A stretch of DNA of 64,000 nt, taken from the NCBI GenBank assembly GCA_963575745.1, contig CAUYUJ010014002.1, forward strand, positions 701,290 through 765,289, read 5' to 3'. This stretch comes from Prorocentrum cordatum. Its lineage: Eukaryota; Sar; Dinophyceae; Prorocentrales; Prorocentraceae. Shown in pieces: positions 13,092 through 64,000 of this stretch. Under the pieces are notes generated by a model, which saw only the letters and a list, made by a program, of their open reading frames with translations, did no database searches and was not told the origin of the DNA. Every line of letters starts with the position of its first letter. Within the stretch, counting starts at the first letter, position 1. The position numbers and the translations under genes were made by a program.

Positions 13092-13239
13092 GGCGGTTCC
13101 CGTTCTTGTACCGAATGGTTTCTGAAAAATGGCCGTTTCGCTTGAGACATCCTCAAACAATTGGCCACGGAAGGGGATTCCGAATCGACATCGTGTTAGA
13201 ATCGCTCTCGGAAGGCTTTCGAACGGCCCAGAGGAGGCG

Positions 13240-16216: not shown

Positions 16217-19200
16217 TGGCTGAATGCAGGTCTTCGACTGCAAGCGTTGTGGCGGATTTTTGGAATTGATACCCGCGGCCTGGTCACCGAGTGGAACCAC
16301 ATGTTCTACAAGATACCTGGGTTTGAGAAGCAGGGCGTCCTCGGCAAGCCAATGATCCAAACTTTTATCCACGTGGACCAGCAAGATTCAGTCCAAGAAG
16401 TTTTCAAACGAGCTATGTCAGGCGAGGACATCGCCAATTTCGAGTTCCAGCTGTACACGAACAACGGGCAAGTAAGAGACCTCTCCATCAACGCGACACC
16501 TCGAATAGGGTACTATGGCGAAATCACTGGGGTTTTTGGAGTGGGCCAGGACGTTACTGAAGTGAACGCCCAACGGAAAGAGCTGGAGCGCGTGGCTGGC
16601 AATCTGCGGTGCACAGTAGACTACGCCAATGCGCCAATCATTGGCGTCAACGTGCAGTGCCTGGTAAACGAGTTCAACTTCAAGGCAGCACAGCTCTCCG
16701 GCTTCTCGAAAGAGGAGATATTGGGAAAGAGTCTGGTGAACACTCTGGTGTCGCCCGATAAACGACCCAGCGTGTCCTTCGCCCTCCTGCGAGCGCTCGG
16801 TGGACAGGAGTCGTCCGTCCTCGAGTTCCCGTTGACCACCAAGGACGGCGACCAGAGGGAGCTCACGATGAACTTCACCGCTTTGCGGGGCGCAACGGGT
16901 GATATGGAGGGCGTGATCTGCGTCGGGACGGACATCACCGAGATGAAGCAGATGGCCGCGCAGCAGAAATTTATCGCCGAAGATTTCCAGCGGGTGATCC
17001 GAAGCGCGAACGCTCCAATCATAGGTGTGAATATACATGGGCAGGTTAATGAATGGAATGACAAAGCGGCTGAGCTATCAGGCTACAGTAAAGAGGAAGC
17101 ATTGGGAAAGGAATTGGTTGAAACTTTCATCCGCGCGGAGTACCAGCCAGCGGTCTCAGTGGCCATCCGCAACGCTTGCCGCGGAATCGACGCCTCGCAG
17201 GTTGAGTTCCCCCTCATTGCGCGCGATGGCAGCCAGGTGCTGCTGTCGCTGAACGCGGCGTCTCGGACCGATCAGTGGGGCAGCATCATTGGCATGGTCG
17301 GGGTTGGCCAGGACATCACAAATCTCCATCAGGCCATGGAAGAGATCGCTGCCAGCCGCGACGAGGTCACCGCAGTGGCAGAGGACTTGCGGCGGACGAT
17401 CGACCACGCTAACGCGCCCATCTTGGGGATCGACACGCAAGGCCGAGTGACGGAGTGGAACCGGAAGATGGCAGAGATCACGGAGTTCGGCAAGGAGGAG
17501 ATGCTAGGGAAGCCGTTGATCGAGGATTTCATCATGAAGGAGTACCAAGAACAGGTTGGGCGTGTGCTGAAACAGGCCATGGACGGTACAGAGACGGACA
17601 ACTACGAGTTCTCCATCGTTTCGAAGAGCGGCAGCAGGCGTGAGATCTTGTTGAACGCTGCTACTAGACGTGGCCCCGAGGGCAAAGTTACTGGAGTTAT
17701 CAGCATCGGCCAGGACATCACGAAAATCAAGGCGGTAACTGCCCATATGGAGCGTGTTGCTGACGACCTGTCGCGTCTCATCGAGACAGCGAATGCTCCT
17801 ATCTTTGCTGTGAACAAGGAGTGCAAGGTCACGGAGTGGAATCGGAAGTGCGAGGAAATCCTCGGTTACCCCAAGGCTGACGCTATGGGCCAGCATCTGG
17901 TGCGCAAGTTCATACACGAAGTAAACCGTAAGTCTGTCCGTACCGTGCTCAACCGGGCCCTTGCGAATGACGAGGTCAAGAATTTCGAGTTGACTTTCTA
18001 CACGCGGGAAGGAGCGCAGCGAGACGTTCTGTTGAGCGCGACGCCACGCTGGGGCCAAGAGCACGAAATCATCGGGGTAGTTTGTGTCGGACAGGACGTA
18101 ACGGAGATGAAAAAGCATCGTGATAATGCGCAGCGTGTTGCGGATGACTACTCCAGGCTCATCAACACAGCAAACGCACCAATATTTGGGGTTGACGAGA
18201 GCGCGTGTGTTACAGAGTGGAACAACTGGGTTGCAGTGAAATCTGGCTTCGTTAGATCGGAGACCCAAGGCAAGAAGCTCACAAACTACATCGCAGAGAA
18301 GAGCCAGGGGGTGTGGCTGGACGTGCTCCGCGACGCCTCGAAGGGAAACCCCACGGAGACCTTCGAGGTGGAGCTCGCGCCGAAGGACCCAGACAATCAG
18401 AAGTGCGTTTCCCTTCTCCTGAATGCCACCCCTCGCATCGACCCACAGGGCGATATCATCGGTGTGATCTGCGTGGGCCAAGACATCACGAGTATCCGGG
18501 AGATGGAGCAACGGAAGGCCGCCTTTATGGCGGTGGTCAGCCACGAGTTGAGGTCGCCCCTGAACGGCATCATGGGGCTCAGCAGCGGTTTGGTGGAGAA
18601 TGCAGTTGAGGGATCCAGCTTCCACAAGCAGCTGAGCCTCATACACAACTGCGCTAGCAGGCTTCTGGACATGGTGAACAACATCATGGACGCGGGGTCA
18701 CTCGTGCAAGACAGGAAGATGAGGCTCTCTTGCGAGAACGTGTACCTGGAGAAGATCGTGGAGGAGGTCGTCGTCCTCTGCCAGAACTCGGCTGACAGGC
18801 ATGGCAAGAAGCTGGTCAAGGAGGGCGTTACCTTGATGAATCACGTGACGGAGCTTCCTGTGATCACTGCCGATCCCTACAGGTGCACGCAGCTCGTTTA
18901 CAATCTGGTGACCAATGCCCTGAAGTTCACGGCGAAGGTCGTGGGCGGAACACACCTATCCGCATCCACGGCCTCGCGAGCCGGGCTCCCGGGCCGCGAC
19001 CCCGAAGACACGGGGCGTTTTTTCGCGGATGCCCCGCGCGGACACATCCGTGCGACCGCGTATCCGCAGGGTCGCGCCCAGGAGTTCAGACCGCGAGGAC
19101 GTGGATATGGATACGTTCGCCGCTCGTGAGCAGGGGCACGTCCGAGTCTTCGCCACCGCGGACCACGTCGCCGAGACTGTAACCGTCACGGTTGAGGACA

Positions 19201-32270: not shown

Positions 32271-32699
32271 CACGCGGAAAACCTTGGGACAAACGTTTGT
32301 TTGGGGTCTTGGCCCCCAGTACCCAGTCAGTCAGGACGGAGAGCCCCACAGGACCTGAGGATATTCCAACTCGTGCCTCGGGGCACGGTGGCGGATACAT
32401 GGTGGTTTCGAGAGCGCGAGCACGTTCTGCTCTCGAGCGCGTTATGGTTTAGAATGGGGTGTTACGATGTTCTAGCCTTTTTTCTCTCCCGTGCAAGATC
32501 TGGCCTCGGCGACGCATTGTTCCCAATTCTCCTGTGTGTGGTGGTCGTTGTTGTGAGTTCGCCGCGCGGTGCCCGCCCTTCTCACCTCCTCCCGCCCCCC
32601 CCCATCCTCCTCCTCCCCTCCTCTCCTCGTCCCTTCTAAGCTTGATCCTCCTCGGCCCTCCTCCCATCGCGCCGCTCCTGCTTCTTCTGTCGCGCTCCT
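32271..32699. other. No gene recognised
   Basis: GC-rich sequence with a GGCACGGTGGCGGAT motif at 32384-32398, identical to the 3' ends of two intron-type elements, but without a partner end or a coding exon. Confidence 0.4.
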
Positions 32700-34234: not shown

Positions 34235-34510
34235 GCGCAAGGGATGGTTCCCGAGTGCGGTTTCTGTCCACGCCAGGTTGCATGCCAAGGCTGGCGCGGC
34301 ATTTTCTCGGCACCAGTGAGGGAGGTTGTGCATAGAGTGGTCCCTGAGCGCGGTCTCGATCCACTCCAGGTCGCAGGGCGTGTCTGGTGTAGCACGTTCG
34401 CGGCCCAGAGAAGAGGGGGTGGCCCCTGAGCGCAATCTGAACCCGTGCCAATTTCGCAGGGCATGGCGGGCGTGGCCTGACGCCAAGAGGGGGTGCGCAG
34501 GATTCCGCCC
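34235..34510 (+). repeat. Three tandem units of approximately 85-95 bp
   Basis: Units begin near 34247, 34341 and 34422 with CCCGAGYGCGGT-type starts and share CCACGCCAGGTTGCATG and GGCGCGGCATTTTC cores. Confidence 0.65.
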
Positions 34511-34589
34511 CTGCACGCGGAGCGCCAGGGCGGTCGCGGGGACGTCCCCAACGGTTCGGTTTGCCCCGCCTTTTTTGTGTGGGCTCTCT

Positions 34590-35165
34590 TGGGGCTCTCT
34601 TGGGGCCCTCCTGAAAGCTATGGAGCGCCCCCTGGGGCCATCTTGGAGACCATCGATCAAAGGAGGGGGGTCCTCGATTCCCCCCCCCCCGGACCATCGA
34701 AATAGCCTCTTGGGGCGCTCTGGAGGCCCTCTTGGGGCGATTTTAGGCGCTCTTGGGGCAGTGCTGGGTGCCTTTTGGGCCCTTTTTGAAGTTCTTCTTG
34801 AGCCATATCAGGGCCATCTTGAGACCTCAAAAGCGCAACGGCAGCGAAAAGGCGAGAAGGCACACATCAGTGATTGTCATCAGGTTTTGAAAGATGTTGG
34901 CTTCGCGGGGAGGTCCTGACGGGTCGCCCACAGCACCTGGAACCGTCTCGTGGCCCCCTTGGGGCCTCTCAGAGGCATGCTGTTATCTATCTTGGTCCAT
35001 GTTACGTTATCTTGAGCGATGTGGAGGGCCACCTTGGGCTCTTGGGGGCCCTCTTGGAGCCATTTCAGGTTATCTTGGACGCCTTGACCGCTCGCGACCC
35101 CCCGGGTGGATTTTTCCGAAACGGAAATCACGACATCCTCAGACCACCTGCGCCCAGAGGGCTGG
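34590..35165 (+). repeat. TTGGGG-array element, copy I
   Basis: Degenerate 10-12-bp TCTTGGGGCC units with the fixed modules ATCGATCAAAG (34652), AGCGAAAAGGCGAGAA (34843) and GGGCTGGTGGGAT (about 35154). No flanking exon recognised. Confidence 0.7.
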
Positions 35166-36035: not shown

Positions 36036-36685
36036 GTGATCAGGGAAGTGCAGGAACAACGAGGGGCAGCCGTTATCGTTCGAAGGGGGTGGAGGGGGAG
36101 GGGGAGGGGGAGGAGGAGGAGGAGGAGGAGGAGGAGGAGGAGGAGGAGGAGGAGGCGGAGGAGGAGGAGGAGGAGGGAGGAGAGACAGGGAGGAGAGACA
36201 GAGAGGAAAAGGCGGATCAGGGGGAGGAGGGCGAGCAGAAGGACCAGGGGCCTCTTGGATGCCTCTGGGCGTCTCTTGGGATATCTCTCGGGCGTTTATT
36301 GGAAACTCCTATGGCTTTTTGCGGGTTTGTTGGCGGTCCCAGAGGCCTCTTTGAGCGTCTTGGGTGCCTCTGGGGGGCTTTTTGGGGCCTCCGGCTGGGG
36401 GCCACTTGGGGGCCTTTTGAAAGCATCTCGTGGGCCCCATTGAACCTCTGTGGGCCCCTCGGGCGCCTCTTGGTGCCATCTTGGAGCCCTTCAGAGGGCC
36501 TTTGAGGTCCTCCTGGGACCATATTGGAGCATATCGAGGGGTGTCCTCAGTTAGCGTCGTCCCTCTGGGGCCCCCAAAGTCCCCTCTTGGGGCCCTCTCG
36601 GAACGCTCTTGGGCGTTTTTGGGAGATTCCGAAGGGGACGAAGGGGGTTGGAAGACTAACGCCCTAAATCCATCACGCCCTAAAG
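36036..36685 (+). repeat. TTGGGG-array intron-type element, copy II
   Basis: Left end CCAGTCCATCCAGCAACGAT (from 36000) matches CCAGCCCATCGAGAAACGAC at 52301. A (GGA)n tract, then TTGGGG-type array, then the right end CCCTAAAG|GGCCGGTGGG with an AG acceptor at 36684-36685. Intron status depends on the uncertain upstream exon. Confidence 0.6.
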
Positions 36686-36710
36686 GGCCGGTGGGCTTCT
36701 GTCGAACCAG

Positions 36711-36735
36711 TTCCGTGATGCCCATTTTGGTTCAG
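36711..36735 (+). other. Decayed spliced-leader-like tract upstream of gene A
   Basis: TTCCGTGATGCCCATTTTGG then TTCAG resembles the SL with two small insertions and a few substitutions. An AG lies just before it, and gene A's ATG is 18 nt downstream. Confidence 0.4.
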
Positions 36736-36752
36736 CGCTTCCATTTCCTATC

Positions 36753-38814
36753 ATGCTCGCCACACAGATTGTGCTTGTATTGGCTTCGATTGAGTTGTAT
36801 TCAGCCATGTCGTTTGAATATGCAGATCAGGTTTGCTTATTTGTGCGCAAAGATGGTGCTCCGACGAGATTTGCTCGCATTCCAACAACGGAGAAGCCCG
36901 GGATTTATCCAGTTGCCTGCGGCAAGGCCCGCCACCGTGCCAGCCCAGTCTCTTGGTTGCGATTGTGCGAGGAGGCACGGGAGTCCGTAACGTGTGACAC
37001 CTCGGCCTTTCAGGAACCTTGGGGGCTTTCCAGGGGCCTCTTGGTACTCCGGGCGGCATTTTCGAAACGAGGCTTCTCGGATGCCCTTTTGGGGCGCCTA
37101 GGGCCGCGTGATGGCGTTCTGGGGCCGTCCGGCGATTTCGGGGTATGCTTTCGGGGGCTTTCTGGGTCGCCTCGCGGATTTTTGTAGCGCTTGGTGGGCC
37201 GTCTGAGAGCCCTCTGGGGCCGAATTCAACTCCTTAAGGGATTTTCTACGGCCTTTTTGGAATCCTCTGTTGTGCGGCCTTGGTGTCCCTCGGTGCTTTC
37301 CAATGCCCGGTTGACTTGGAGACTTCTTGGGCTGTCTTGAATCGGGGAAATCTCGAAACGCTCGGATCGCGAAGAACTTTGCGCACTTCCTTGGGGCTCC
37401 GCTTGCGGTCTCTCGGGCCGTCTCGAGGCCATCTTCAAACGGCTTGAGGCCGTCGCCGGTCGTCTTGGAGTGCCGTTGGGCAGTGTTTGAGCTCTTGGTG
37501 GCCCGTTTTTCCCGTCTTGGAAACCATCTATTGGCAACTCGAACGCGCAGGGGGGCGCCGGGGTCGTTTTTGGGCGCCGACAGAGCCTCGGGAAGAGGGG
37601 GCGTTGCAGGCAATTCGAATGTTTCCGGGGGAGGGGGGCCTGTAGATTTCTTCAACAACCCTATCAGACAGCAGGCGGCTCTTGTGCGCCACAATGTGCC
37701 CCCAGGCACGGTGGCGGATTGTGCCATCTGGGATCAGGGGTGCATCCATGGGAACAAAATGGCGCAGGCAGCTGACGACGTCAAACCATTCCCTATCATT
37801 GAAGAAGGCACCGAAACGTATGCCGCCTCCATCGCTACACTCTTTCAGGATTATGGCTGTGTGGTTGTGAGAATCAATACAGGCGTCGCGCCAAAGACGT
37901 ATGATAATTTGTGTTCACTGTTTCTCACAGCGCTACATGATTGTGGTGGAAAGAAGAAACGTCTGGGCCCATGCGCCCGCCTAGGCTTGATGACCGCTGG
38001 AGGGTTGCCCTTTTCTGAGTTCGCTAACAAGTTACGGTTGCTCCCAGCATTTAAAACGATTTGGGAAGATGTATTGCGCATCGATGGCAGGTGGGATCCA
38101 GATAATGTGGCCATGATTGCAACTCATGAAGCTTTGCTCATGACCAGGGCTGGGAAGGGAACATATAAAGGCTTACCAGAGCACAGGGACAACAACAAAC
38201 TCAAAGTGGGCGGCAATTTTGTCAAAGAGATTTCGTTCTTGCAAGGGCAATTGTTGCTCCATCCGCCTCCAAAGGCATTCACTCGTTGTGGAGTGCTCGC
38301 TTCATGCATCCCGTTATCCCCATCATCGTACCACAATCAATTGATTTCATTATGCACCAGGTACGGCCAATGTGAGAATGGCTGCGTGGCAAGATCGGCC
38401 CTTGAGCGGCCGCGCTGTGGGAACGTGCTGGGCGGGGATTGTTTGCCTCTCAGGGAGGCTCGGAAACTGTCAGAAGATGATCTCTTAGCATTCGCGCGTA
38501 AGTCAGTCGCACCATATCTGCGTCAGTCCATGTCAAAAAAACCAGACCAGGCCACCTTGCGCAAGTCTCGAGCCACCTTCATGCGCGATCTTGTGGAGCG
38601 CGTCGGGAACCCGGTGCGCACAGAAGCCACTCTAAAAAGTGCCATTGCGAGGAAGGGAGTACGCGTTGGCCTCATTCTAGGCCTGGCAGGAGAATTGCCA
38701 GTGTCAACCATGTGGCGCCTGTACCCCGGCGCCCCGGTGAATGTCGCACGCGCAGTTTTTGGCATGGCAGAGGAATATCCAGCTGCCTGCGGCAGGCGCC
38801 GCCGTTATTTGTAA
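36753..38814 (+). CDS. Gene A: unknown protein, weakly dioxygenase-like
   Basis: Two exons, 36753-36936 and 37706-38814, joined by removal of a 769-nt GT-AG intron; the frame matches exactly (769 = 3n+1). Product about 430 aa if the TAA-type end at 38812-38814 is used. Composition is less GC-rich than the flanks and typical of real coding sequence. Residues after the junction include FPIIEEGTETYAASIATLFQ, then DYGCVVVRINTG, then LPFSEFANKLRLLPAF and PEHRDNN. This order recalls the start of PhyH-type 2-oxoglutarate/Fe dioxygenases with a possible H-x-D, but the distal His and Arg are not evident. I would not assign a function. The last codons (AACGRRRR before GTTATT at 38804) repeat the pattern seen at the first donor, so a further intron may begin there and the stop may be intronic. 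Confidence 0.55.
36930..37716 (+). mobile_element. Mobile-intron candidate in gene A (family 1)
   Basis: 787 bp bounded by CGCCACCGTGCC and GGCACGGTGGCG, perfect 12-bp inverted repeats. The donor GT (36937) and the acceptor AG (37704-37705) lie inside or next to the repeats, so 7 nt and 11 nt of the element stay in the mRNA. The interior carries TTGGGG-type units. Same ends as 42405-43258. Confidence 0.75.
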
Positions 38815-39173
38815 TACTTTGTTTTATTGTTGCTGAGGCCATGGTTCGGAAGAGGTGAGGGGGTATGATAGGGGAGAGGAAGAGACAACAGGAGATCGGC
38901 GAAGGTACTTTCAGGTAGACGGCGCGAGGATTTGGGAGGAAGTATGGGGGGGGGGGAGGAAGGGGGGGAGGAGGAGGGGGAAGAGGAGGATTTGGAGGAG
39001 AGGGGGAGGAGGAGGAGGATGGGGGATGAGGAGGGGGAGGGTCGAGGTTCGAGGTTCGAGGTTTCTTGCCGTTCTCGTCCTCCGAGGGTCCGTTTTTGGG
39101 GTGAGAACCTGGCCAGGGCGGACCCGGGGGGGGCCCTGGGGGGAGTCCCGGGACCGATTCTGAGCCGACTTCG

Positions 39174-39223
<50 letters not shown>

Positions 39224-39428
39224 GGCGGCCGTCGTCGTCGTGGCCGCCGCCGTCGTCGCCGTCGTCGTCGCCGCCGCCGTCGTCGTCGCCGCCGTGGCCA
39301 CCCTGGGTCTGACGAGGGAGTTGTCGGGAGGGAGGACCGGAACGAGGACGGGGCTCCGGCGGCCGGTCGGGGCGCTTCCGGCCCCCCAGAACGCAGTTTC
39401 TCACCCCAGATCCGTCTCTGACGGTCCT

Positions 39429-39462
<34 letters not shown>

Positions 39463-39600
39463 ACGCGCCGGGGGGCGCGTTGACGGATTTCGACGTCGGT
39501 CTGCTGTGCCGCTGGATCGGGAACGGAGGCCGGAAGCGTCGCGCCAAGGACACATCAACAATTCTCCCAGACCGTGACAAGCTCAAGCGTTTGAAACATT
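38815..39600. repeat. (GGA)n and (GTC)n simple-sequence region
   Basis: Purine-rich GGGGGAGGA tracts at 38940-39050, a (CGT)n run at 39175-39300 with CCG variants, and a second (CGT)n at 39428-39462. No gene. Confidence 0.85.
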
Positions 39601-39800
39601 GACATTGCATATAATTGCAGAAGTTGGCTTCATATATGCAGGTATATCATCGTTCGAAACTTGAAGTTGGCTTGCATTGCAGAAGTTGGCTTTCATTGCA
39701 AAGGTTGGCGTTCATATATGCAGAAGTTGGCTTTCATATATGCAGAAGTTGACAAGTTAGCGTTTGAAAAATTGCAGGTATATCATCGTTCGAAACTCAT
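39601..39800 (+). repeat. 20-bp tandem repeat
   Basis: Five to six copies of ATATGCAGAAGTTGGCTTTC, bracketed by two copies of AGGTATATCATCGTTCGAAA. Confidence 0.8.
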
Positions 39801-40090
39801 ATATGGTACATTGGCTTCATTACGTCTTGGTGGGACGCATTTGGCGTCTACTCTCTGCTTCCTTGGCCTGTCGGAGCGCGTTTGGCGCATCGGCTCGCGA
39901 TCTGCGCGCGTTTGGCGCGTGACCTTCTCCGGGTTTTCGGAAGAAAGGTTTAGCCAGTGCGGCCCCCAAACAGTGCTTCCTTGCAGTCCAAGCGGCGGTG
40001 TGCGTACGCTATGATTGGCTTTGCTCTGCTATGTAATACTCGTTGGCCATGCTTTCTGGGGTAAGCGATTTTGTCATTTTTGGGTTGAGT
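39801..40090. other. No gene recognised
   Basis: Contains three GCGTTTGGCGC-type motifs but no repeat array or supported ORF. Confidence 0.35.
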
Positions 40091-41045
40091 AATCAATGTG
40101 GTGCAATATGTGTGGCGCATTCTGTGGGGTGCAATCTATGTGGTGCCATCTATGCGGTGCAATCAATATGGTGCAATATATGCGGTGTTCTCGACGTGGC
40201 GAGGTCCGTCCGGTGTGCCGCGCGCGCTATACGCTTGGTGGTGCAACTCATGTTCGCGACCGCAGTCGGGGACAACATGTTCTTAACCAGCGAAGAACAT
40301 GTAGGAAGTTCATAAACAAAAAAGGGCGGCATTGCAAATAAAAGCAGGACGCCAACAGAGGAACGGGCAGTTAAATATCGCGAAAGACTTGTTTGACATC
40401 CTCACGTTCTACACTGTGTGATAGAATGATTGCATATCCGAGCCAGTCCGTCTTCCTTTGTGTTATTTTCGGCGGCTCTGTCCCCCACAGGGCCGTCCTG
40501 TAGACCATGTTGCGCGTCTTGGAGGCCTCTTGGGCCGTCTGGAGGTTTCTCTGGGGCCTTATTGGGGGCACCTGGGGCCGTCCTGGGGCGACTTCGGAGG
40601 CCTCTCGGGCGCTCTGGGGGCAATATGGAGGGCCTAGGACGTCCTGTGCCGTCGGGGGGCCGAACAAACCAATTTCTAAAAAATCGTTGGTGTTGCGTTT
40701 TTCAGGCCTTCCCGGAGGACTTGTTGGAGGCCTCTTGGGCCGTGTTGGTGGCCTCTTGGGGGGCTCTCGGGCCGTCGTCGGCCATCTGGTGCCCCCATAG
40801 GCTATCATGGGTGCGTCGTTGGCCGTCTCAGAGACATATTGTGACCATCGTAGGCTTTCTTGGGACCGCCATGGCCATCCTGGGGGCCATCTCTGCGGTG
40901 TAAGCTATGCGGCGTAATCCGTATGGTGCAATATATGTGATCCCCTCGACGCGGTGAGATCCGTTTGGTTTTACATGCGCGATATACGCTGGGTGGTACA
41001 ACTTATGTTCGTGACCACAGTCGGGGACAACATGTTCTTAATCCG
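40091..41045 (+). repeat. Direct repeat pair flanking a TTGGGG array
   Basis: A TGTGGTGCAATCTATG tandem (40095-40190) and its 3' flank ending GTCGGGGACAACATGTTCTT (to about 40285) recur at 40890-41045, about 75-80% identical by eye. Between them, 40500-40880 is a TTGGGG-type array. Confidence 0.7.
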
Positions 41046-41417
41046 GCCCTCGCGGCGGCTGGCCACACGAGGCTCGGCGCCAGCCCCGGCGCTCTTCGCC
41101 ATGCGTCTTGGAGCAGCGCCGAGCGGCGCAACGCTGACGCGAAATCTGCTCCCGCCCGGCCTCCTCCTCCCTCTGCCCCTTCTTCGTTCTGTTCTAGGCT
41201 CGTTGTCGGTTCCTCTTAGGTTTCTCCGGCGTTCTGGTGTTGCGACAATGCAAGGATGGCGGCATTTGAGCACACTTGTAGCAACGGTCGTGTACACACA
41301 ACCTCATAGAGCGCAGTTCACTTACAGCAACTGTAACTGCGCATTTCAGATAGCAGTCATTCACTATCTCAACGTGATGGTGCTGAACAGCCCTGGCAAT
41401 TCACAGGTTTGCAATTT
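41046..41417 (+). other. Upstream region of gene B
   Basis: GC-rich to about 41230, then balanced composition. A short frame from 41248 (MQGWRHLSTLVATVVYTQPH onward) stays open to 41421 and could be an upstream exon, but it ends at the SL-like tract and is more likely 5' flank. Confidence 0.3.
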
Positions 41418-41451
41418 GTAGCCTTTTGGGCTCAAGCCTTTTGGGCCCCAG
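41418..41451 (+). other. Two decayed spliced-leader relics in tandem
   Basis: GTAGCCTTTTGGGCTCAAG (41418-41436) equals the SL 3' part with one base lost and one gained. It is followed at once by GCCTTTTGGGCCCCAG (41436-41451), a second, more worn version. Gene B's ATG is at 41481. Confidence 0.6.
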
Positions 41452-41480
41452 CATTAACGCACCAACGCAGTTCTGGCGGC

Positions 41481-44400
41481 ATGGTGCGTTGCAGTTATTT
41501 GAAATGCAGTGGGGATTTTCCTGGTCAAGAGCACGACGAGAACGATTGCAGAGGCTATTGTTGCTGGTATTGCAAAGCTCTAGACACAGGGATCGAGGCA
41601 CGAGCTGGGAAGAGGAAACATTACAAAGGCCACTGTACTGGAGATCACCCGGAGTGCCAATTTTTTTCTTTACCGAGTATCGAGGAGGGCCGCCCAGCAG
41701 CTGCAAGTAGTACTGGAGAGCTCCCCGGCGATGAGTCGGCCAGGAGGATGGACGATGCTGATGATACCTTTCAGGATTCCTCATCAGATAACGAAGCTGC
41801 TGCAGCGTCATGTGGTGCAGAGATCCCACCTCCAGAATCGCTTGGCGAGGTCCATCGTGAAGATGCCGCAGCAGCCGGTTTGCGCTATGGCTGCATTGTA
41901 GAACAACAGGGTTTTGCACCTCACGCTATGCGACAATCTGGTGAGTGGGCCTTCGATCTTTTATGCCGAACATCGACATCGGGAAGTTTGCAAAAAGCAG
42001 GCTCTACAACACGTCATTTTCAGCCTTGGAATTTGCCTTTGCAAGCAATCCGTACTTGGCCCAGGCATATGGCTGCCCCCCCAGTGTCATTGGATCATCA
42101 CCCTATGTTGCAAGGCAAAACGGAGGATGAGGATACTCTCCTGGCCCGAACCGCGAGGCGACAGACTAACTTCGAGAAATACGTGGTCTGGAAGAAGGAG
42201 GGTAGCGCGGAAGGGTGGGATCCTCCAGCAGGGCCCGCATCCTCGCTTGTATGTCCTGGGCCTCAGGAGGGCGGAGCTCTGGATTTCACCAGCGTCAAAA
42301 TGGCTATCGTGCAGACGACGAGTGAGGAAGAGCAAGCTGCGTTGTTGGCTGTGCTACCGCGATGTAGGAAGCATTTGGATTATCTACTGGCCTTCGGCCC
42401 ATCCCGCCACCGTGCCTGGGTTGTGGGTATGAGGCCTGTGCGGTGCTCGCTAGGATCTCTTGGAAGCCTTCTCGCGGGCCTCTTGGAGGCAGTTTCGAAG
42501 CCTCTTGGGGGCCGTTTTGGGGCCTCTTGGGCCCTCTTTTGGGCCTCTTGGGGGCCTCTTGGGGCCTCTTGGGAGCGTCTTGGGCGCTTCTTGGGGCCTC
42601 CTGGGGGCTTTTTGGGCCCTCCTGGGGCTGTCTTGGTGCGGTAGGCTCGAATTTTAAGTTCGGGCTCCCCCTCTTGGGCCCCTCTTGGGGCCGTCTTGGG
42701 GCCCTCTTGGGTCCTTTTGGGCGATTCTTGGGCTGTCTTGGCGCCCTCTTGGGCCGTCTTGGGCCCTCTTGGGAACCTTTTGGGCCGTTTTGGGGCGATC
42801 TCGGGGGCCTCTTGGGCTGTCTTGGAGCGTTAGAAAGCAGAAAGGTCGTTCATGCCATAAATGTACGTTTTCCCATCGGAATTTGACGATTCTGGCTTCT
42901 CGGGGCTCTCTTGTGAGGCCTCCGGAGCTCTCTTGGGCTGTCTTGGCGGCTTCTTGGGCTGTCTTGGAGCCATCTTCGGCGCCACGGGGCGATTTTTCAG
43001 TGTCTCGGGGTTCTGTTGGGCCGTTTTGGGCGCCTCTTGGGGCCTTCTTGGCCCTTTTTGGGGCCCGCTCGGCGTCCGAAACGCCCTCGCGACGCACTCC
43101 GGGCCCGCCCGGGAGCGCTCGAGAGCTCCCGAGAGCGCCCAGGAGCGCCTGGGAAGCTGGCGGTTTTGGCCTTTAAAAGAAACGAAGAACAACCCCCCTG
43201 CCTTGGAGGGCTGCATGAGCCTTGGAGCATTCCACTTCGTGCTGAAGGCACGGTGGCGGATTTGACCTGGGATGCCAGAGGCGGCGTGAAAAGGCCTGCA
43301 GGTTGTAACAAGGGCAAGGCTTGCTCCAGACCCCATGCCCTTTCAGCTAGTGATCCGCACGGAAGCATTGATCCGAAACAGCTCGCCCATTTCAAAATTT
43401 CAGGGGTCACGAATGGGATTTCGATCCTACCCGCCGGTAATCTCGCGAGGAAGAGGGACAGTGGTGGTATTACAGGATTGTCCTTTCAGATGCGGCCGCC
43501 TATTGCAACGGCCCTGCAAGAGTTTTTCAAAAAGCATGGCCTTTTGAACATGCTCGACACGGCTCACCTTCAGGAGGATGCAATGGGTCGTCAGTGTGTG
43601 CGTCTGCGCGTGCTTCGCGGCATCTCTATGATAGGCCAAGAGGCTGAGACGCTGGGGAACCCTGCAAATGGATCGCTGGTGGACACGAACGTGGTCAGGC
43701 CTGGGGAACGACTGGACCGCAGCAGCACGACGGTCCCGGAGCTGACCTATCATGGTACCCACCCTGATGTGTTTCTCGACATCCTACGGTCTGGTGGGTT
43801 GATGCCAGGAAATTCGTATCCGAATGGCGTGTATCTTTGTCCAGACGCGAGGTGTGCAGAAATGAGCATGTACAACCGGGGACTCGTTGTGGTATGCAAA
43901 ACATCTGGTTTCCCATACAATCACGAGAAAAACAAGCATAAACTGCAGGACCAGGATTCGATCCCAAACGGTTGTCTCGGATATCTTCGCAACGTGCTGC
44001 AAGTGAAGCAGATTTGCGCACACCCACGATGTTTGCAGATCGAAGAGTTTGTTTTTCAGCTCGACAGTCTTGTGAAGATGGTCGATGCCGAGTTGGAAGC
44101 CCTGGGATATACCCAGAAGTACCACGAGCACATGACCAACTTGCTCACCAAAGTGCAGGACCGCTGGCGCGTTATTGAAGACCGGCAGACGAAGAGACAG
44201 AAAGCTGACGGCATTGCATTGGAAAAAGGGCCCGCTTGCATTTCCTATTATTTCTCTTTCTCTGCATGCCCCGCTTGGCCTCGGCCTTCGGGGGGGGCAG
44301 GAAAGAGAAAGGGGCCCGCTTGCATTTCCTATTATTTCTCTTTCTCTGCATGCCCCGCTTGGCCTCGGCCTTCGGGGGGGGCAGGAAAGAGAAAGGGGCC

Positions 44401-44743
44401 CGGCTTGCATTTCCTATTATTTCTCTTTCTCTGCATGCCCCGCTTGGCCTCGGCCTTCGGGGGGAGCAGGAAAGAGAAAGGGGCCCGCTTGCATTTCCTA
44501 TTATTTCTCTTTCTCTGCATGCCCCGCTTGGCCTCGGCCTTCGGGGGGAGCAGGAAAGAGAAAGGGGCCCGGCTTGCATTTCCTATTATTTCTCTTTCTC
44601 TGCATGCCCCGCTTGGCCTCGGCCTTCGGGGGGGGGCAGGAAAGAGAAAGGGGCCCGCTTGCATTTCCTATTATTTCTCTTTCTCTGCATGCCCCGCTTG
44701 GCCTCGGCCTTCGGGGGGAGCAGGAAAGAGAAAGGCGATGTAA
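41481..44743 (+). CDS. Gene B: zinc-binding N-terminus, ADP-ribosyltransferase-like domain
   Basis: Exon 1 41481-42411, exon 2 from 43248; removal of the 836-nt GT-AG intron keeps frame (836 = 3n+2). The N-terminus has a Cys/His cluster (CSYLKC, CCWYC, HYKGHC), probably metal-binding. Exon 2 contains LTYHGTHPDVFLDILRSGG (about 43740) and PNGVYLCPDA (about 43823), an arrangement like the H-x-T and G-x-Y elements of PARP/ART-fold enzymes; the third catalytic residue is not identified. The C-terminal part (KLQDQDSIP to RQTKRQKAD) is helical. Up to 44209 the product is 631 aa. Here a 28-bp segment present in the duplicate copy is missing, removing the stop, so the frame reads 177 further residues through an 84-bp tandem repeat to 44743. 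The true C-terminus is probably that of the duplicate (three more residues). Confidence 0.6.
42405..43258 (+). mobile_element. Mobile-intron candidate in gene B (family 1)
   Basis: 854 bp with the same perfect ends as the gene A element, CGCCACCGTGCC and GGCACGGTGGCG. Donor GT at 42412, acceptor AG at 43246-43247. The interior is largely TTGGGG-type array, giving Trp/Gly/Leu-rich spurious ORFs. Confidence 0.78.
44228..44735 (+). repeat. 84-85-bp tandem repeat, six units
   Basis: Units GGGCCCGCTTGCATTTCCTA through GGAGCAGGAAAGAGAAAG. Each unit can fold: TTTCTCTTTCTCTGC pairs with GCAGGAAAGAGAAA, and GGCCTCGGCC is palindromic. Confidence 0.95.
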
Positions 44744-45179
44744 AATTAAGCCTATATATATGTATATATGTATATATAATATAGCTACAATAGCAATAAT
44801 ATACTATAGCTATAGTAGTTATAGTATTTGCAACGTTGGGGAGTTCATAATAGGGAATACTAGGAAATAAAAAGGATATAATAGGGAATGACCGCTGTTA
44901 GTTTCCATACCTCTCATTCCAAGGCTATGCAGAAGTAAGATATATGCATATATGTATATATGATATAGCTATAATACCAATAATATCGCATGGCTATAAT
45001 AGCTATAGTATTTGCAACGTTGGGGGTTTTATAATAGGAAATAATAAGAAATAAAAGGGAAATTTCATGATTTCGATCTATGTTTGTTTGACTTTCACCC
45101 AGCGGAAGGTCCACCATCCTTGGCAGGTCTGGCCTTCCTCGACGCGGCGGCGACGTCGACGCGGGCGTTCCAGGTTGAC

Positions 45180-46080
45180 GCTCATTGTGTGTATGTAGAT
45201 ATGTACACGAGAGGTGGTGTGTGTAGGTAGAGAAGTTTACGATATGTGGTGTGTGTGTATGTATATACACGATAATTGTCGTATGTGTGTAGACATGTGT
45301 ACGAGGAGTGGTGTGCGCATGTGGGTGTGCATGTAGATATGTATTTGATATGTGTTGTACGTGTGTAAGTATGTATACGATATGAGTTGTATCTAGGTAG
45401 ATAGTTATGTATACGATACGTGTTGTGTGTCGGCGTATAAGCGGTAAATCTTTCCCGGGTATGTAGACACGTATACGATATGAGTTGTGCGCATGTGGTT
45501 ATGTATACGAGACGTGTCGCGTGTATGTAGATAAGCATACAATAGGTGTTGTGTACGTAGATACGTATATGATGAGTGATGTGTGCGTGTAAATAGGTAT
45601 ACGATGTGGGTTGTGTGTGTGCGTGTGCAGACACGTGGACGAAATATAGTGTGTATGCATGTCGATATGTATAGATATGTGCTGCGTGGGTATCGAGATG
45701 TAGACGCCATGTTTTGTGCGTAGGTATACATGTTTTCGAGATGTGTTGCGTGTAGGTAGATATCTATACGATATGTCTTATGTATATGTACGGATGTACA
45801 AGATTTTTGTAGTGCGTATGGATATATGTATACGATATGTGTTGCGTGTAGGGAGGCCTGTGTACGACACGTGTTGTGAGTATGTGAATACGTGTTCGAT
45901 ATGTGTTGTGCGTAGGTAGATACGTAAACTGTATGTGTCGTGTGTAAGTAAATATGTATACGATAAGTGTTGTGTGTATAGATATCTATATACGATTTTG
46001 TTGCACGGATGTTTACATGCATACGGTAGGGTGTGTGCGTATGTGGTTATGTCTACGATATGTTCAGTCCCGAGTGCTCT
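45180..46080 (+). repeat. Approximately 33-bp degenerate repeat
   Basis: About 25 units of the type TATGTAGATATGTATACGAT plus TGTGTTGTG. The 33-bp period keeps minus-strand frames open (Tyr/His/Thr-rich), which is a repeat artefact rather than a gene. Confidence 0.8.
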
Positions 46081-46499
46081 CCTAAAAACATCCTAATTAG
46101 ATTTTGGCCTCTGGGGGCCGTTGTCGGGCCTCGTGGCCATCGGGCCCCACCCCCAGGCTAGATGTTCATATCTCGGATTGCGTTCCGGCGGCCTCGTGGC
46201 CGAATGGGGGCCTCCGGCGGCCCAATCTGCGGGCAGGGTCAGCCGTCGATGTGGCGCCGGGGCGGGGCGAGGGCCTGGAGCGGTAGGGGGAATGCTGCCC
46301 CTCTCCTTTCCCCCACTTTCATTTCCCCCCATCCTCCCTGGTCCCTCCTCCTCTTCCGTATGGGGTCTCCTCCGCCCTCCTGCCCCCGAGCTCTTCCCCC
46401 GGTTCTCCGATTCTTCCACCCCTTGCCACTTTTCCGTCGCTGGGGGGGCTCTCGCGCCCTGCGAGGGGCCGCGCGCCCCAAGAGCCAAGAGGGGCGGCG

Positions 46500-46700
46500 T
46501 GGAGGAGGAGGAGGAAGGAGAAGGAGGAGGAGGAGGAGGAGGAGGAGGAGGAGGAGGAGAAGGTGGAGGAGGAGGGAGGAGGAGGAGGAGGAGGAAACGA
46601 GCGGGACGGAGGAGGAGGAGGCGGAGGAGGAGGAGGAGGAGGAGGAGGAGGAGGAGGAGGAGAGGGAGGGGGAGGAGCAGGAGGAGGAGGGCGCCGGGCG
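46500..46700 (+). repeat. (GGA)n microsatellite
   Basis: Interrupted GGA/GGAGGA tract followed by a GAT-rich segment. Confidence 0.92.
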
Positions 46701-46951
46701 CGGGTGGGCGCGTCCAGGCTGGTAACGGCGGTGATGATGACTATGATGGTACTGGTGATGCCCGTGCAGATTCCGATGGCGACGGTGACGACGACGATGA
46801 TGATGGTGGCGTTGGTGATGTTGGATCTGGAAAGGCCGTTTTGGGGTCGTTGGAAGCTCTCGACCCCATCGCCTCTGTGGGGGTCGTGCGGAGCTCTCGA
46901 ACCCATCATCCTCACTGCTATCGGGCCGTGGGCTCACCTCCGTTTGGGGGT

Positions 46952-47258
46952 ATACAATCACGAGAAAAACAAGCATAAACTGCAGGACCAGGATTCGATC
47001 CCAAACGGTTGTCTCGGATATCTTCGCAACGTGCTGCAAGTGAAGCAGATTTGCGCACACCCACGATGTTTGCAGATCGAAGAGTTTGTTTTTCAGCTCG
47101 ACAGTCTTGTGAAGATGGCCGATGCCGAGTTGGAAGCCCTAGGATATACCCAGAAGTACCACGAGCACATGACCAACTTGCTCACCAAAGTGCAGGACCG
47201 CTGGCGCGTCATTGAAGACCGGCAGACGAAGAGACAGAAAGCTGACAAGACACAGTGA
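46952..47258 (+). pseudogene. Duplicated 3' fragment of gene B
   Basis: Encodes the last roughly 100 residues of gene B, from NHEKNKHKLQDQDSIPNG to RQKADKTQ, and ends at TGA 47256-47258. It has no promoter-proximal part and no start of its own. Against unit 1 it has one visible amino-acid change (Ala for Val in KMVDAE), suggesting recent duplication. The stop it retains shows where gene B probably ended before the indel in unit 1. Confidence 0.8.
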
Positions 47259-47294
47259 TCACAGACTCATTTTCGGCATTGTATTGGAAAAAGG

Positions 47295-47800
47295 GCCCGC
47301 TTGCATTTCCTATTATTTCTCTTTCTCTGCATGCCCCGCTTGGCCTCGGCCTTCGGGGGGAGCAGGAAAGAGAAAGGGGCCCGCTTGCATTTCCTATTAT
47401 TTCTCTTTCTCTGCATGCCCCGCTTGGCCTCGGCCTTCGGGGGGAGCAGGAAAGAGAAAGGGGCCCGGCTTGCATTTCCTATTATTTCTCTTTCTCTGCA
47501 TGCCCCGCTTGGCCTCGGCCTTCGGGGGGAGCAGGAAAGAGAAAGGGGCCCGGCTTGCATTTCCTATTATTTCTCTTTCTCTGCATGCCCCGCTTGGCCT
47601 CGGCCTTCGGGGGGAGCAGGAAAGAGAAAGGGGCCCGCTTGCATTTCCTATTATTTCTCTTTCTCTGCATGCCCCGCTTGGCCTCGGCCTTCGGGGGGAG
47701 CAGGAAAGAGAAAGGGGCCCGCTTGCATTTCCTATTATTTCTCTTTCTCTGCATGCCCCGCTTGGCCTCGGCCTTCGGGGGGAGCAGGAAAGAGAAAGGC
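47295..47800 (+). repeat. 84-85-bp tandem repeat, six units (duplicate)
   Basis: Same unit and copy number as 44228-44735. Confidence 0.95.
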
Positions 47801-50640: not shown

Positions 50641-53600
50641 ATGGTTCTGGTCTTGTTTCTCGCAATTGCCGCTGGTGTTCTTCGCATTGGCCCGTGCCTT
50701 CCAATGAGTGATGGTGGCGATGACCTCGGGGCACCTGGCTGGCCCGAGGGGGATCGTGAAGATGCTGGTCCTTGCGGGCGGGGCGATCCAGGCGATGAGC
50801 TTGAAATGCTTCTGGAGCAACAGCGGCGTGAGCAACGCCTCGATCAGCACCTCGTCGCCGCGGCAGTCCCGCAGGAGGCTCTCGCAGTGGCTCCTCCGCC
50901 ATTGGAGGATTGGTGCGCTTCTTGGGACGGGTCCGAGGTAGTTCTGCGCGCTGACTCAGCCAAAATTGCGCGCATGCCGGCGCGCCCCAGCCCCGAGGTC
51001 GATGCTCTCGCCGTTCATTTCTGCGGGGAGACGCCAAGACTTGGAATGCCATTGGAGGCTGAAGCGCAGCTTTTGGGGCCGACGAGGAACACATTCCCCC
51101 GCAGATTGGTGGAGTACGCTAGTTGCACACTGCACATTGGCTGGGCGTTCGCATCTGGATTTTGGAAGCGACTTGGGCAACTCATTCAGGCCGAAAAGTA
51201 TCGACCAGTAGCAGCGTTCAAGAAAACTTCCTTCGATGAGACACCGTGCAATCTTCGCGTGGACATGCTCCCACGGCTCGCCGGCCCAACCCCTGCGAAG
51301 CGTTTGCGGCGCCGACGGGTGACCAGTTACAGGCCGCAGACATGCAAGGTGCTACAGAGCGAGATTGGTTTGGGTTTGCTGCTCGAAGAGATAGGCGCTT
51401 TGGAAGAGGATGGGCCGGGAGGGGTCCGAGGCAACGGTCGATATATCGGAGGGCGCCTCCGGCGACTCACCGCCGCGCCCTGCCATTCCAGGGTCGCCGC
51501 CCTCGTTCGGGCTCCTGGGGGGGGGGCTACCAGGCACGGGCCTCTCTTGGGCCATCTTGGATCTCGGCGCTGCGAAGGGCCATCCTGGAACCGCTGTGGG
51601 TCGTCCCCTGCGCCGCTTAGGCAGCGCGAGCGACGAATTCGAGGCGTCGTCGTTTTCATTTTCGGCTTTTGGGGGGAGACGCCCGAAAAGCCGCGCGGGG
51701 CGCGGGCTCCGCGGCGGAGGGCACTGGGCTGCCGAGGGGCGGGGACTGCGCAGGAGGCCTCGCCCAGAGCTTGCCCAGCACCTAGCGCGACCGCAGGAGG
51801 GAGCGGGGCAGAGAAAGGTAGGGGCAGGGCCGAAGGCGGGGAGGGGGTGTAGGCTAGGTTCGTGCCTCGTGGCCCCATTGGGGGTGCCGGCAGATTTTGG
51901 TCACCGCCCCACTCCCCGCGCATTTGCAAATACAAGACCATTCCACCGCTGAGGTCACCCGCCAGTGCTTGAATAGCCAGTGGAACATCGATGGCCTGAG
52001 CGACTTGCTGTCGAAGTTTGGTCGGGTCATCAGCCTTACTTCGGCCGACAGGGCGTCTTCAAACTTGCGCACAGAGGCGTCGCTTCTCCGCGATGCCTCC
52101 GCGAACGAAGCTCGTATCAGCTTAGGATGCACTGTCCACAGGATTAGCACCGTCACCAAAGCCCAATACAGCGTCGTTGACCACGACATCAGTCACATGA
52201 TCGCTGTCGCCTTGGTCGTCCGGCCAGGCGGGATGTTTCATCTTTTGCAACAGTGCGTCGAGTGCTTTCTGGTGAATTCTTGACGCTTCGCGCATCCCCA
52301 CCAGCCCATCGAGAAACGACGCCCAGGTGAGTTGAGGTGATCACGGAAGTGTGGGAACAAAGAAGGGGACATCCGAACCGAGCGAAGGAGGGAGGAGGAA
52401 AAGGAGGATGCAGGATGCATGGATGAGGGAGCGGGGAGAAGGACTATGAATCGGATGAGGAGGAGGGGAAGGGGGAGGGGGAGAAGGAGGAACAGGACAA
52501 GCAGGAGGAGGGGGAGGATGAGGAACAGTCAAAGGCGATCAAGAAAACAAAAGCCTCTTGAATATTTATCGGTGTCTTTTCGGATGTCTCCTGGAAGCTT
52601 TTGGAAGGCCTCTTGGGGCGTCTGGGGGCATCTTGGCGGGCCCAGGGCCGTCTTTGAGCGTCTTGGGTGCTTCGGGGTTCCTATTGAAGCTTCTTGGGGG
52701 TCTCTTGGGGGCCTCTTGGAGGCCTCTGGGGGCCGTCTGTGCGCCCCTTGGGGCCCTCTTGGGGCGCCCTTGGGAGCTTTTTATGGGCGCTCCTGGGGTC
52801 ATCTTGGAGGATATCGATCAAAGAAGCCGGGTTCCCCAATTCGCGCCCCCGTTCGGGAGCCCCAAAAACCATATCTTGGACCCCTCTTGGGGCGCTCTTG
52901 GAGCGCCCTTGGGCGCTGTTGGAGCCGCACAGGGGCTCGCTCGGGCGTCTCTTGGGGCCCTTTCGGGCCATGTTGGAACCATTTGGAGGCTTCGGATGGC
53001 CATCGTAAGCGAAAAGGCGAGAACGCAGCAATCATTGACTTTCTTTAGGTGTTAAAGGATTTGGGCCTCTTCGGGACCTCCTTGGTCCTTGGCGAGCCCT
53101 TTGGCCAATTGGAGCCGTCTTGGGGCGATATTGGACCCTCTTGGAGCATTTTGGGAGCCATCTTGAGGCATCTTGGGCTATCTTGAGCCAGCTTTGAAAT
53201 CATCTTGGGCTCTCCAAGGCCATCTTGGAACCAAATTGGGCCATCTTGGACGGTTTAATCCCTCGCCGCCCCCCCCCTCCCTTCCCCCCCCTCCCGTCCA
53301 GGTCCAGGGGGCGGGGTTGGAAGGGGAAGCGCCCTAGACCACCTTCGCCCTAAAGGGTTGGTGGGATTTTCTTGACATCGTACCAAATGGGATTCCACCC
53401 CGCGCTGGCAGCGAAGCGGCCGATTTCCGGACGAGCATGCTCGACCTTTTCTTCAGCGGCAGCGATCTGACCAGTCAACAAGGGCGCGCTGTTGTCGAGG
53501 ACCTTTTGAACATGGATTGGAGGTCGAAGCGGCCAACACATGCGTGCGCTATTGGTCATTGCCTTGGGCGAGATGATACTATCTCAAAAATCAAGACGCT

Positions 53601-61972: not shown

Positions 61973-62020
61973 GGATGGATGGATGGATGGATGGATGGAT
62001 GGATGGATGGATTGATGTAT
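61973..62020 (+). repeat. (GGAT)n microsatellite
   Basis: Ten GGAT units then GATTGATGTATT, at the right edge of the satellite. Confidence 0.9.
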
Positions 62021-62159
62021 TGATGAGGGAGGTGGGGCAAGGATGGGGAATAGGCGGGTGAGGAGGAGGAGGAGGAGGAAGGAGGAGGGAGGAGCGACAA
62101 GGAGGAGGAATAAGCAGAAGAGGAGGAGGAGGAGGAGGAGGAGGAGGAGGAGGAGGGCG

Positions 62160-63735
62160 AGCAGAAGGGCCTGAGGCCTCTTGGGGCGTCTTGGGGGTCT
62201 CTTGGCGGTCCCGGCGGCCCCGTGTGGCGTACCTATTGGGTGCCTCTGGGGGGCCTCTTGGGGCCTCTTGGGGGCCGCTTGAGGGCCTCTTGGGGGCGTA
62301 TTGGGGGCCTATTGGGGCCTTTTGGGCGCCTTTGGAAGCCATCTTGGGGCCTGTTGGGGGCCTCGGAGGCCTTCTTGGGACAATCTTGGAGGACATCGAT
62401 CAAAGAGGTGGGCCCTGCGTAATTAGTTCCCCCCTCTTGAGCCCCACAACTCGCCTCTTGGTTCTTGGGTGGGTCTTTCTTGGGGCGCTATTGGGGCATT
62501 CGCGGGCCTCTCGTGGGGCCCTCTTGGGCCATCTTGGAATCATCTTGAGGCCTCGGGGGCCCGTCGGAAGCGAAGGGGCGATAAGGCCAGCGCCTCGGGC
62601 ATTCCACGTTCGAGGGGGTGGGCAACGTAACGAATTTCCCCCCCTTGAGCGGGAGCTAACCTACTCACGCTCCCAGAGGCGGTAGAACGCTGAATCCGCC
62701 GAAGCACCCATCTCACCTCACTCATTGATATTTGTTTGGTCATGGAATTGTTTGGGCATCTTGGGGGCCTCCTTGGGAGTCTCCGTGGCCACTTGCGCCC
62801 ATCTTGGGGCCATCATCATGGGGCTTTTTGAAGGCATCTTGGAGGCCATATTGAGCCAACTTGCGCCAAATTGCGCTATCATGGAGGCCATTTGATAGCA
62901 TTTGGGGCAATCGTGGAACCCTCTTGGGCCAAAAGCGACAAGCTAATATTTCAATGTCCTCTGTTGATATGGGAGGGGGGGGGGGCTAATTTAGCGCTGC
63001 CTGTTCGGGGCGCTCTTGGATCGCTCTTCGACGCCCTTGGGGCCGTATTGGGGCATTATTGGGCCTCTCTTGGGGCTTCTGGGGCCATTTGGGAGCCATC
63101 TTGAGGCCTCGGGGGGCCATCGGAGCCGAAAGGGCGAGAATGCCAAAGTTATTTAATCGCTTCGCTCATTCCGCCAGCCCGTCTTGTAGCATCGCTGGCG
63201 CTTGCCTGCGCCCGCGTGGGCATTTTGGGAGCCTCCTGGGGCCTCTTGGGGGCATCTGGGGGTGGTCTGGGTGGCCTCCTGGGGGCCTCCTGGGGGCCGC
63301 TTGGGGGCCGCTTGGGGGCCTCGTGAGGCTCTCTCGGGGGCTCTTGGGAGCCTCTTGGGGCTACTTGGGGCTTCTAGGGGCCTCTTGGGGGCGTGTTTGG
63401 GCATCGGCAGCGAAAGGGCGAGAATGCCAAAGTTATTGATTTTCTGTTGGTTTTTGAAAGATGTTGGCCTCTTGGGGGCCTCCTTGGGAGGCTCCGGCGC
63501 CTCTTGGATCCGTCTTGGAGTGTTCTTGGGGCCTCCTGGAGCACATCGGCAGCCATCTTGAGCGATCCTGGAGTATTTCGGGCCATATAGGAGGGAGTCT
63601 TGGGTTTTCGGAGGCCCTTTTGGAGCCATCTTGGGCCATCGTGGGCGCTCCAGCCCCTCGCGGCCCCCCCGTCCGGGTCCAGGGCGAGGGGGTAGGGGAA
63701 GGAGAGGGTTGGAAGAGGAACCGTTCTAAATAAAC
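62160..63735 (+). repeat. TTGGGG-type degenerate arrays
   Basis: Two or three array blocks separated by modules ATCGATCAAAG and AGCGAAAGGGCGAGAA (two copies, 63125 and 63408, each followed by TGCCAAAGTTATT). Part of copy IV. Confidence 0.8.
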
Positions 63736-63748
63736 CATATCCGCTCTA

Positions 63749-64000
63749 AAGGGCTGGTGGGATTTCTGGTGGATCGTGGCCTTTAGGGCGCGGGCCTATC
63801 ACATGTTACAGTTGTGGGCCCCCAACCATGCATTGTGAATCGCTGCCCTGAGGGCGCGGTCCCATGGCATTATAGGATGGGGCGTCGGCTCGCAGGTGGC
63901 CGGCGGTCGCCATTCCACGCCGCAGTTACGACATCCACGATTGTTCTCAGCCTGGCAGCGCCGCAGAGGGGCCGGAGGAGTTGCACCTAGTCTCCATGAG
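63749..64000. other. No gene recognised at the right edge
   Basis: Begins with GATCGTGGCCTTTAGGGCGC-like motifs shared with 55010-55330; otherwise unassigned and cut by the window end. Confidence 0.35.

Follow-up and report, generated by a model that had tools for sequence, protein, structure and literature searches.

Two unrelated genes in a 64,000-nucleotide stretch of the Prorocentrum cordatum genome (GenBank assembly GCA_963575745.1, contig CAUYUJ010014002.1), referred to here as the window, are each interrupted by a member of one dispersed family of mobile elements. We favour the view that these two inserts, called A1 and B after the genes A and B in which they lie, belong to an abundant non-autonomous rolling-circle family of the Helitron2 type and probably act as introns, and we give this whole chain of claims a probability of about 0.5. 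Removal of the element restores the ancestral protein at four sites in three genes, one of these sites being assigned to the family as probable, and the element always lies 3' end first with respect to the gene.

Homologous proteins define the insert boundaries

An earlier note on this DNA had described both inserts as introns bounded by identical 12-bp inverted ends, CGCCACCGTGCC and its inverted complement. This pair is indeed present, with the left copies beginning at 36930 and 42405 and the complements ending at 37716 and 43258, and the true repeat is 13 bp long (C...G). Alignment with homologous proteins shows that these repeats are not the edges of the element, as each insert extends 20 bp further out at the left and 2 bp at the right. 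The protein search covered 5.8 billion sequences, of which the 8,000 candidates with the most words in common were scored. It returned P0001 (55% identity) as the sole relative for gene A, and P0002 (91%) and P0003 (57%) for gene B. Exactly 14 residues are missing from P0001 at the gene A junction, GIY[PVACGKARHRTVAD]CAIW, and from both gene B relatives at DY[LLAFGPSRHRTVAD]LTWD. Given that the homologs miss exactly 14 residues per site, the inserts measure 811 bp (36909-37719) and 878 bp (42384-43261). The features of the two genes are as follows.

36684..36908, plus strand: gene A exon 1, an open frame with a coding start that is not fixed, ending at a TAT codon; residues 5-34 of P0001 match 36819-36908
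36909..37719, minus strand: element A1, 811 bp, in Helitron2-like orientation; P0001 is without exactly this insert, and exact removal restores the protein
36909..36928, minus strand: 3'-terminal hairpin segment of A1 (TTGCC TGC GGCAA), 20 bp beyond the repeat
36929..36941, plus strand: left 13-bp asymmetric inverted repeat of A1, containing the GT of the earlier note
37705..37717, minus strand: right 13-bp inverted repeat of A1, which is the element's 5'-terminal repeat; AG at 37704-37705
37720..38778, plus strand: gene A exon 2, 353 codons; 55.8% identity to P0001 over 37720-38805
38779..39488, minus strand: element A2, 710 bp, an altered copy and probable family member, as judged by its hairpin end, 5' fold and P0001 junction
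39489..39602, plus strand: gene A exon 3 and stop (stop at 39600); matches the C-terminus of P0001, E 5e-12
41416..41436, plus strand: spliced-leader relict upstream of gene B, with 4 mismatches in 21 to the dinoflagellate leader
41481..42383, plus strand: gene B exon 1, ending at a TAT codon; 92.7% identity to P0002
42384..43261, minus strand: element B, 878 bp, with a TTGGG-rich core and Helitron2-like orientation; P0002 and P0003 are without exactly this insert
42404..42416, plus strand: left 13-bp inverted repeat of element B
43247..43259, minus strand: right 13-bp inverted repeat of element B; AG at 43246-43247
43262..44743, plus strand: gene B exon 2; similarity to P0002 stops near 44209, and the frame continues into an 84-bp tandem array

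The GT and AG dinucleotides singled out previously are where they were said to be, they define introns of 769 and 836 nt, and their use restores both reading frames. The peptide R-H-R-T-V-A likewise appears at both junctions. Measured against the homologs, the gain would be 14 residues (42 nt) and not six, and the proposed frame-neutral footprint of 18 nt is not supported. That genes A and B are unrelated is borne out by the lack of any significant match between the homologs P0001 and P0002. An exon or domain common to both genes, which might have accounted for the stretch RHRTVAD, is ruled out, as the proteins are unrelated and the homologs are without that stretch. Pfam revealed no domain in the products of gene A or B, nor in their homologs, and a search of the PDB with P0002 gave no match.

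Element A2, a third insert that had been overlooked, interrupts gene A a second time. Its hairpin end matches that of another genomic copy (L017) at 26 of 28 positions by eye, and its 5' hairpin has a folding energy of -18.1. Without it, AEEY runs directly into FDVG, as in P0001, and the insert again sits after TAT. With a low profile score for its hairpin end (8.8 bits, E 0.074) and altered inner repeats, A2 counts only as a probable member; its other end was not detected by the end profile.

The surroundings of gene B hold further repeats. Two arrays with 84-bp units (6 copies each, 97-99% alike) lie within 44224-47799 and flank a partial duplication of the gene B 3' end (46953-47255, 92% to P0002). 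The relict listed above was recognised by comparison with the dinoflagellate spliced leader over 21 nt, and it was seen in all five gene B copies whose loci extend to it, including that of the window. Stretches resembling this leader with 1 mismatch in 21 also occur at 935 and 28742. No claim is made for a relict upstream of gene A, where shuffled sequence reaches an equal score.

The ends have the layout of Helitron2 elements

When copies from across the genome are read on the minus strand, the 13-bp 5' repeat begins within 0-2 bp of the end, and in 22 of 22 ends it pairs with the bases downstream to form a hairpin. The mean energy of this hairpin is -15.5 (22 ends) versus -12.0 when the downstream part is shuffled, and none of 100 shuffled sets was as low. 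The 3' repeat is located 20 bp inside the end and is followed by a short hairpin with a mean stem of 4.19 (26 ends), compared with 3.35 after shuffling (0 of 200 sets); RNA energies were used in the hairpin tests, and the 3' hairpin is weak in individual copies. Short asymmetric inverted repeats occupy the Helitron2 positions in the 13 complete copies described below. This arrangement matches the definition of Helitron2 (PMC3627910) and related descriptions (PMC4067079, PMC5148889).

The view that these are mobile DNA elements is supported, in that a dispersed family with inverted repeats is found in coding sequence and its removal restores the frame; attribution of the family to a cut-and-paste transposon with terminal inverted repeats (TIRs) is not supported. 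Repeats at both extremes would be expected of such a transposon, and here 20 bp that are alike between copies lie beyond one repeat, including 12 of 20 bases common to A1 and B. Similarly, a target site duplication (TSD) of 3-9 bp would be expected, and at most 2 bp are seen at the examined sites. A transposon bounded by the 12-bp repeats is thus ruled out by the homolog alignments together with the common outer 20 bp. Since the repeats are asymmetric and, with the two terminal hairpins, form the Helitron2 layout, a TIR transposon is not supported, and we consider it likely that the element is Helitron2-like.

The proteins of autonomous Helitrons, which are common in the host genome, may have moved the element. 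The Helitron Rep domain PF14214 gives at least 151 matches in the assembly (150 of 1,615 first-look candidates were scored) and none in 14 control genomes. Several families of Rep genes with long open frames are represented by repeated matches of the same score and frame length (e.g. 1099-aa and 1797-aa), and this repetition makes recent Helitron activity likely.

The family is abundant and cleanly inserted

The window contains five exact copies of the 12-mer, where 0.023 are expected from base composition. Five are still found when one mismatch is allowed, a number that none of 100 dinucleotide shuffles reached (maximum 4). The fifth copy, at 32382, is part of a solitary right-type end for which no mate was found.

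32353..32396, minus strand: lone 5'-type end (repeat and hairpin) of the Helitron2-like family, which folds; profile score 42.9 bits, E 2.8e-12, not an independent score given that this end belonged to the training set of the profile

Across the host assembly of 4,128,499,153 bases (4.13 Gb), to which all genome counts refer, the 12-mer occurs 26,592 times (13,421 + 13,171), and its reversed control occurs 1,631 times (796 + 835). In viral contigs, a scan with the right end yielded at least 120 matching stretches. A survey of 30 loci and 25 further regions, using two end profiles that had been derived in part from these copies, identified 28 hairpin ends and 23 AT ends after one extra cross-hit was dropped. 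Thirteen copies are complete, with a hairpin end facing an AT end, and these range from 604 to 1,623 bp (median 829). Two loci with weak or partial end pairs (L010 and L027) were excluded from this count. By eye, similarity in the end alignments fades past an AT on both sides, and this dinucleotide is the usual edge of the element. We have very little doubt that this is a genuine family, present in many copies that are cleanly inserted.

The filling of the elements had been described as a TTGGGG-type array. We find a degenerate CTCTTGGGG array that is strand-specific in 13 of 13 complete copies and is not a telomere array. Cores in these copies carry a mean of 17.8 TTGGG versus 0.6 CCCAA per kb, and the flanks carry about 2.5 and 2.3. 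More strand-specific stretches rich in TTGGG or CCCAA, without recognisable ends, are located in the window at 13001-13750, 34501-35000, 36251-36750, 52501-53250 and 62001-63750, and these are possibly decayed members of the family.

Genic copies share one codon position and orientation

Inserts A1 and B both begin directly after a TAT codon and finish with ...GGCGGAT. A fourth genic site was found in a Helitron Rep gene, where a 912-bp member lies exactly between KY and LYKYTYKGHD in two near-identical loci (L204 and L205, with one difference in 3,510 bases). This motif is presumably the location of the paired tyrosines of Rep proteins. Insert-free sisters of this Rep gene (L203 and L206) are contiguous at the same point. 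Of another 20 Rep pieces, a motif scan shows 13 to be uninterrupted at this point, inspection by eye adds two, and the remaining five are uninformative. All four genic copies, namely A1, B, the Rep copy and the probable member A2, sit after TAT at the same codon position and in the same orientation. The pattern by which introners are recognised, that of several new coding positions absent in homologs, is thus seen in A1, B and the Rep gene, and probably in A2.

Candidate splice sites lie within the shared ends

The RNA of the element, in one orientation, would be removed as an intron. Potential sites are on hand in the shared ends, with a GT 28 nt into the insert (25 nt in A2) and a GC at 13 nt. 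At the other end, AG|G is a variable feature that precedes the last 14 nt in three of four genic copies and in 5 of 21 other ends whose genic status is not established (one-sided p 0.08). Because GT, GC and mostly AG|G are available, the spliceosome, using sites inside the ends, would most likely be the agent of removal. Intron use is favoured by the common orientation of all four genic copies, by the frequency of AG|G among them, and by earlier accounts of introns with inverted repeats in P. cordatum (PMC10666404), and we lean towards the view that the element works as an intron. A broader proposal is offered only tentatively: Helitron2 elements, in addition to cut-and-paste transposons, may mass-produce introns in this genome, through one family with thousands of copies that inserts behind TAT with the 3' end first and would be removed from RNA precisely enough for an insert to be tolerated even in the tyrosine motif of a Helitron Rep protein.

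Several observations weigh against our preferred reading. Many of the fetched pieces have a single recognisable end, and a few show other combinations, such as two facing hairpin ends 83 bp apart (L155) or two ends in the same direction (L170 and L003). Of the 13 complete copies, 8 have AT/AT edges and one has GT/GT, and the two edges differ in the other four; an insertion between A and T would look the same as a 2-bp duplication. The 12-mer is missing from the four Rep loci and the one 7.5-kb Rep region that were read, and no autonomous partner was found in them. Moreover, an AG is lacking from the expected position in A2. The junction CGCCACC|GCACGGTGGCG that GT-AG splicing would leave is absent from the 4.13-Gb genome (0 matches; reversed control 2). 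A type A scar pattern, with a donor at most 30 nt after GCCTGCG, gave no matches (control 0). The type B pattern gave two (control 0), neither convincing, as one is a neighbouring 5' end and no convincing gene surrounds the other; these genome searches detect only genes retroposed after insertion. A search of proteins for the predicted scar peptides likewise returned none at E <= 10 among 647 candidates, a weak test that covers only genes retroposed or recorded after insertion. An apparent GC-AG scar with 59 matches, 38 of which are exactly the predicted junction, has been withdrawn because all 20 inspected matches (19 exact, 1 variant) show by eye a 5'-end hairpin with a TGC loop and none has hairpin-end bases upstream.

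Alternative explanations

It is possible, though we do not favour it, that no intron exists, and that these are Helitron2-like insertions in retrogene-like or decaying gene copies that were spread by segmental duplication, with frames that are open merely because they are young. The condition of the gene copies bears on this directly. The genome holds at least five copies of gene A and at least five of gene B, and all that were found have the element at the same point. Three contigs (C13278, C17656 and C18656; loci L197-L202 and L228-L231) each carry both gene A and gene B, which suggests segmental duplication. The gene B inserts measure 878 bp in three copies, 1,104 bp in L201 and 506 bp in L200, which is damaged in that the whole hairpin end is deleted and a low-complexity insertion interrupts exon 1. 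A fifth gene A copy (L231) has frame-shifting indels in exon 2 by eye. When gene B of the window is compared with L198, changes are seen at 14 of 993 nonsynonymous and 4 of 294 synonymous sites, rates that are alike and show no skew to silent change. The variable codons of gene A exon 2 comprise 2 silent and 9 replacement differences among four copies. Purifying selection, which might have served as proof of splicing, therefore left no sign among the copies, and this result and the damaged copies weaken the case for splicing here, as the genes may be in decay and splicing would then be unnecessary. The spliced-leader relict ahead of gene B is also in keeping with retrogene-like copies. On the other hand, gene A, about 55% identical to P0001, keeps an open frame across its three exons, all four genic sites agree in orientation and codon position, and the selection tests have little power because there are few changes to count. 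Between the window and L198, the gene B exons differ at 18 of 1287 positions and the element at 3 of 878.

Two further explanations retain an intron and differ from our preferred reading in the nature of the element or in the manner of its removal. A TIR DNA transposon with GT and AG inside its repeats, from which the spliceosome cuts 769 or 836 nt and leaves a constant scar of 42 nt (14 residues), or 27 nt if the donor is the GC at insert position 13, seems unlikely. It draws support from the GT-AG and GC-AG pairs that keep the frame in A1 and B, from the Rep copy with GT and AG|G at identical offsets, from the frequency of AG|G and GC donors in the host (PMC10666404), and from published cases of codon-adding introners (PMC9860276, Fig. 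2 legend). Opposed to it are the empty searches for the junction, the type A scar and the scar peptides, the missing AG of A2, and the fact that a scar in the Rep copy would fall within the conserved tyrosine motif. Exact non-canonical removal of the whole insert from RNA, guided by the inverted repeats, is in our judgement quite improbable. Cuts at TAT| and GAT| would restore the homologous protein exactly in four of four cases, and the genome searches revealed no convincing scar. Introns of Amoebophrya, for which such a mechanism has been proposed, have inverted repeats of 8-20 nt, short direct repeats and variable non-canonical borders (PMC7789003). However, any clean insertion restores the protein exactly, and this property does not reveal splice sites. 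The apparent enrichment of AG|G in genic copies would be superfluous under exact removal, and the left repeat is gone in L200.

Comparison with known systems

Non-autonomous Helitron2 and Helentron elements (HINE, DINE-1) resemble the present family in having asymmetric inverted repeats of 8-15 bp (PMC3627910, PMC4067079, PMC5148889), a terminal 5' repeat that folds with downstream bases, a 3' repeat about 20 bp inside the end followed by a hairpin, and, in some known families, central repeats. They differ in their edges, which are given as TT or TTTT for Helentrons and Helitron2 and are AT here. In addition, the P. cordatum element interrupts coding sequence as a possible intron, and the Rep loci examined did not include an autonomous partner that shares its ends.

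The introners of dinoflagellates (Symbiodinium, Polarella and P. cordatum) share with it the lineage, inverted repeats near the intron ends and a high copy number, and introns of P. cordatum are reported to be enriched in introner elements (PMC10666404). The Symbiodinium family has TIRs and 4-bp TSDs (PMC9860276), whereas the repeats here are asymmetric and the edge is a 2-bp AT. In Aureococcus, the introner also brings both splice sites and adds residues (PMC9860276, Fig. 2 legend), but it adds 12 bp including an 8-bp TSD; the P. cordatum element would have to add 27 or 42 nt, and the searches revealed no convincing scar. Amoebophrya elements have inverted repeats, short direct repeats at the borders and a hairpin that joins the exons (PMC7789003). 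Their direct repeats are 3-5 nt rather than 2 nt, and no family-specific repeat is described for them, unlike the one dominant repeat here.

Introners, codon-adding introners (PMC9860276) and inverted-repeat introns in P. cordatum (PMC10666404) are already known, and intron gain by introners has been tied mainly to TIR DNA transposons (PMC9860276). A search of the literature by title and listing found no Helitron2-type introner, although work beyond that scope may exist.

Other features of the window

The window has a GC content of 59.7% and begins at base 701290 of its contig. Positions 24-58 carry about five units of an ACCCTAA-type repeat, which is telomere-like yet internal to the contig. 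An open frame at 8596-9960 has a weak match to RVT_2 (Copia-type reverse transcriptase) of 27.8 bits, below the curated cut-off of 31.6. A 970-aa open frame at 16217-19129 combines a histidine kinase HisKA domain with six PAS matches, an unusual number.

Implications

One genome holds both the Rep gene copy with the element and many insert-free sisters, and the question of splicing is therefore directly testable. If the reading proposed here is true, introns could also be gained by a replicative rolling-circle route, through introners of the Helitron2 type. For a parasitic element, removal from RNA would make the invasion of exons nearly costless, and rolling-circle introners would help to account for the intron richness of dinoflagellate genomes.

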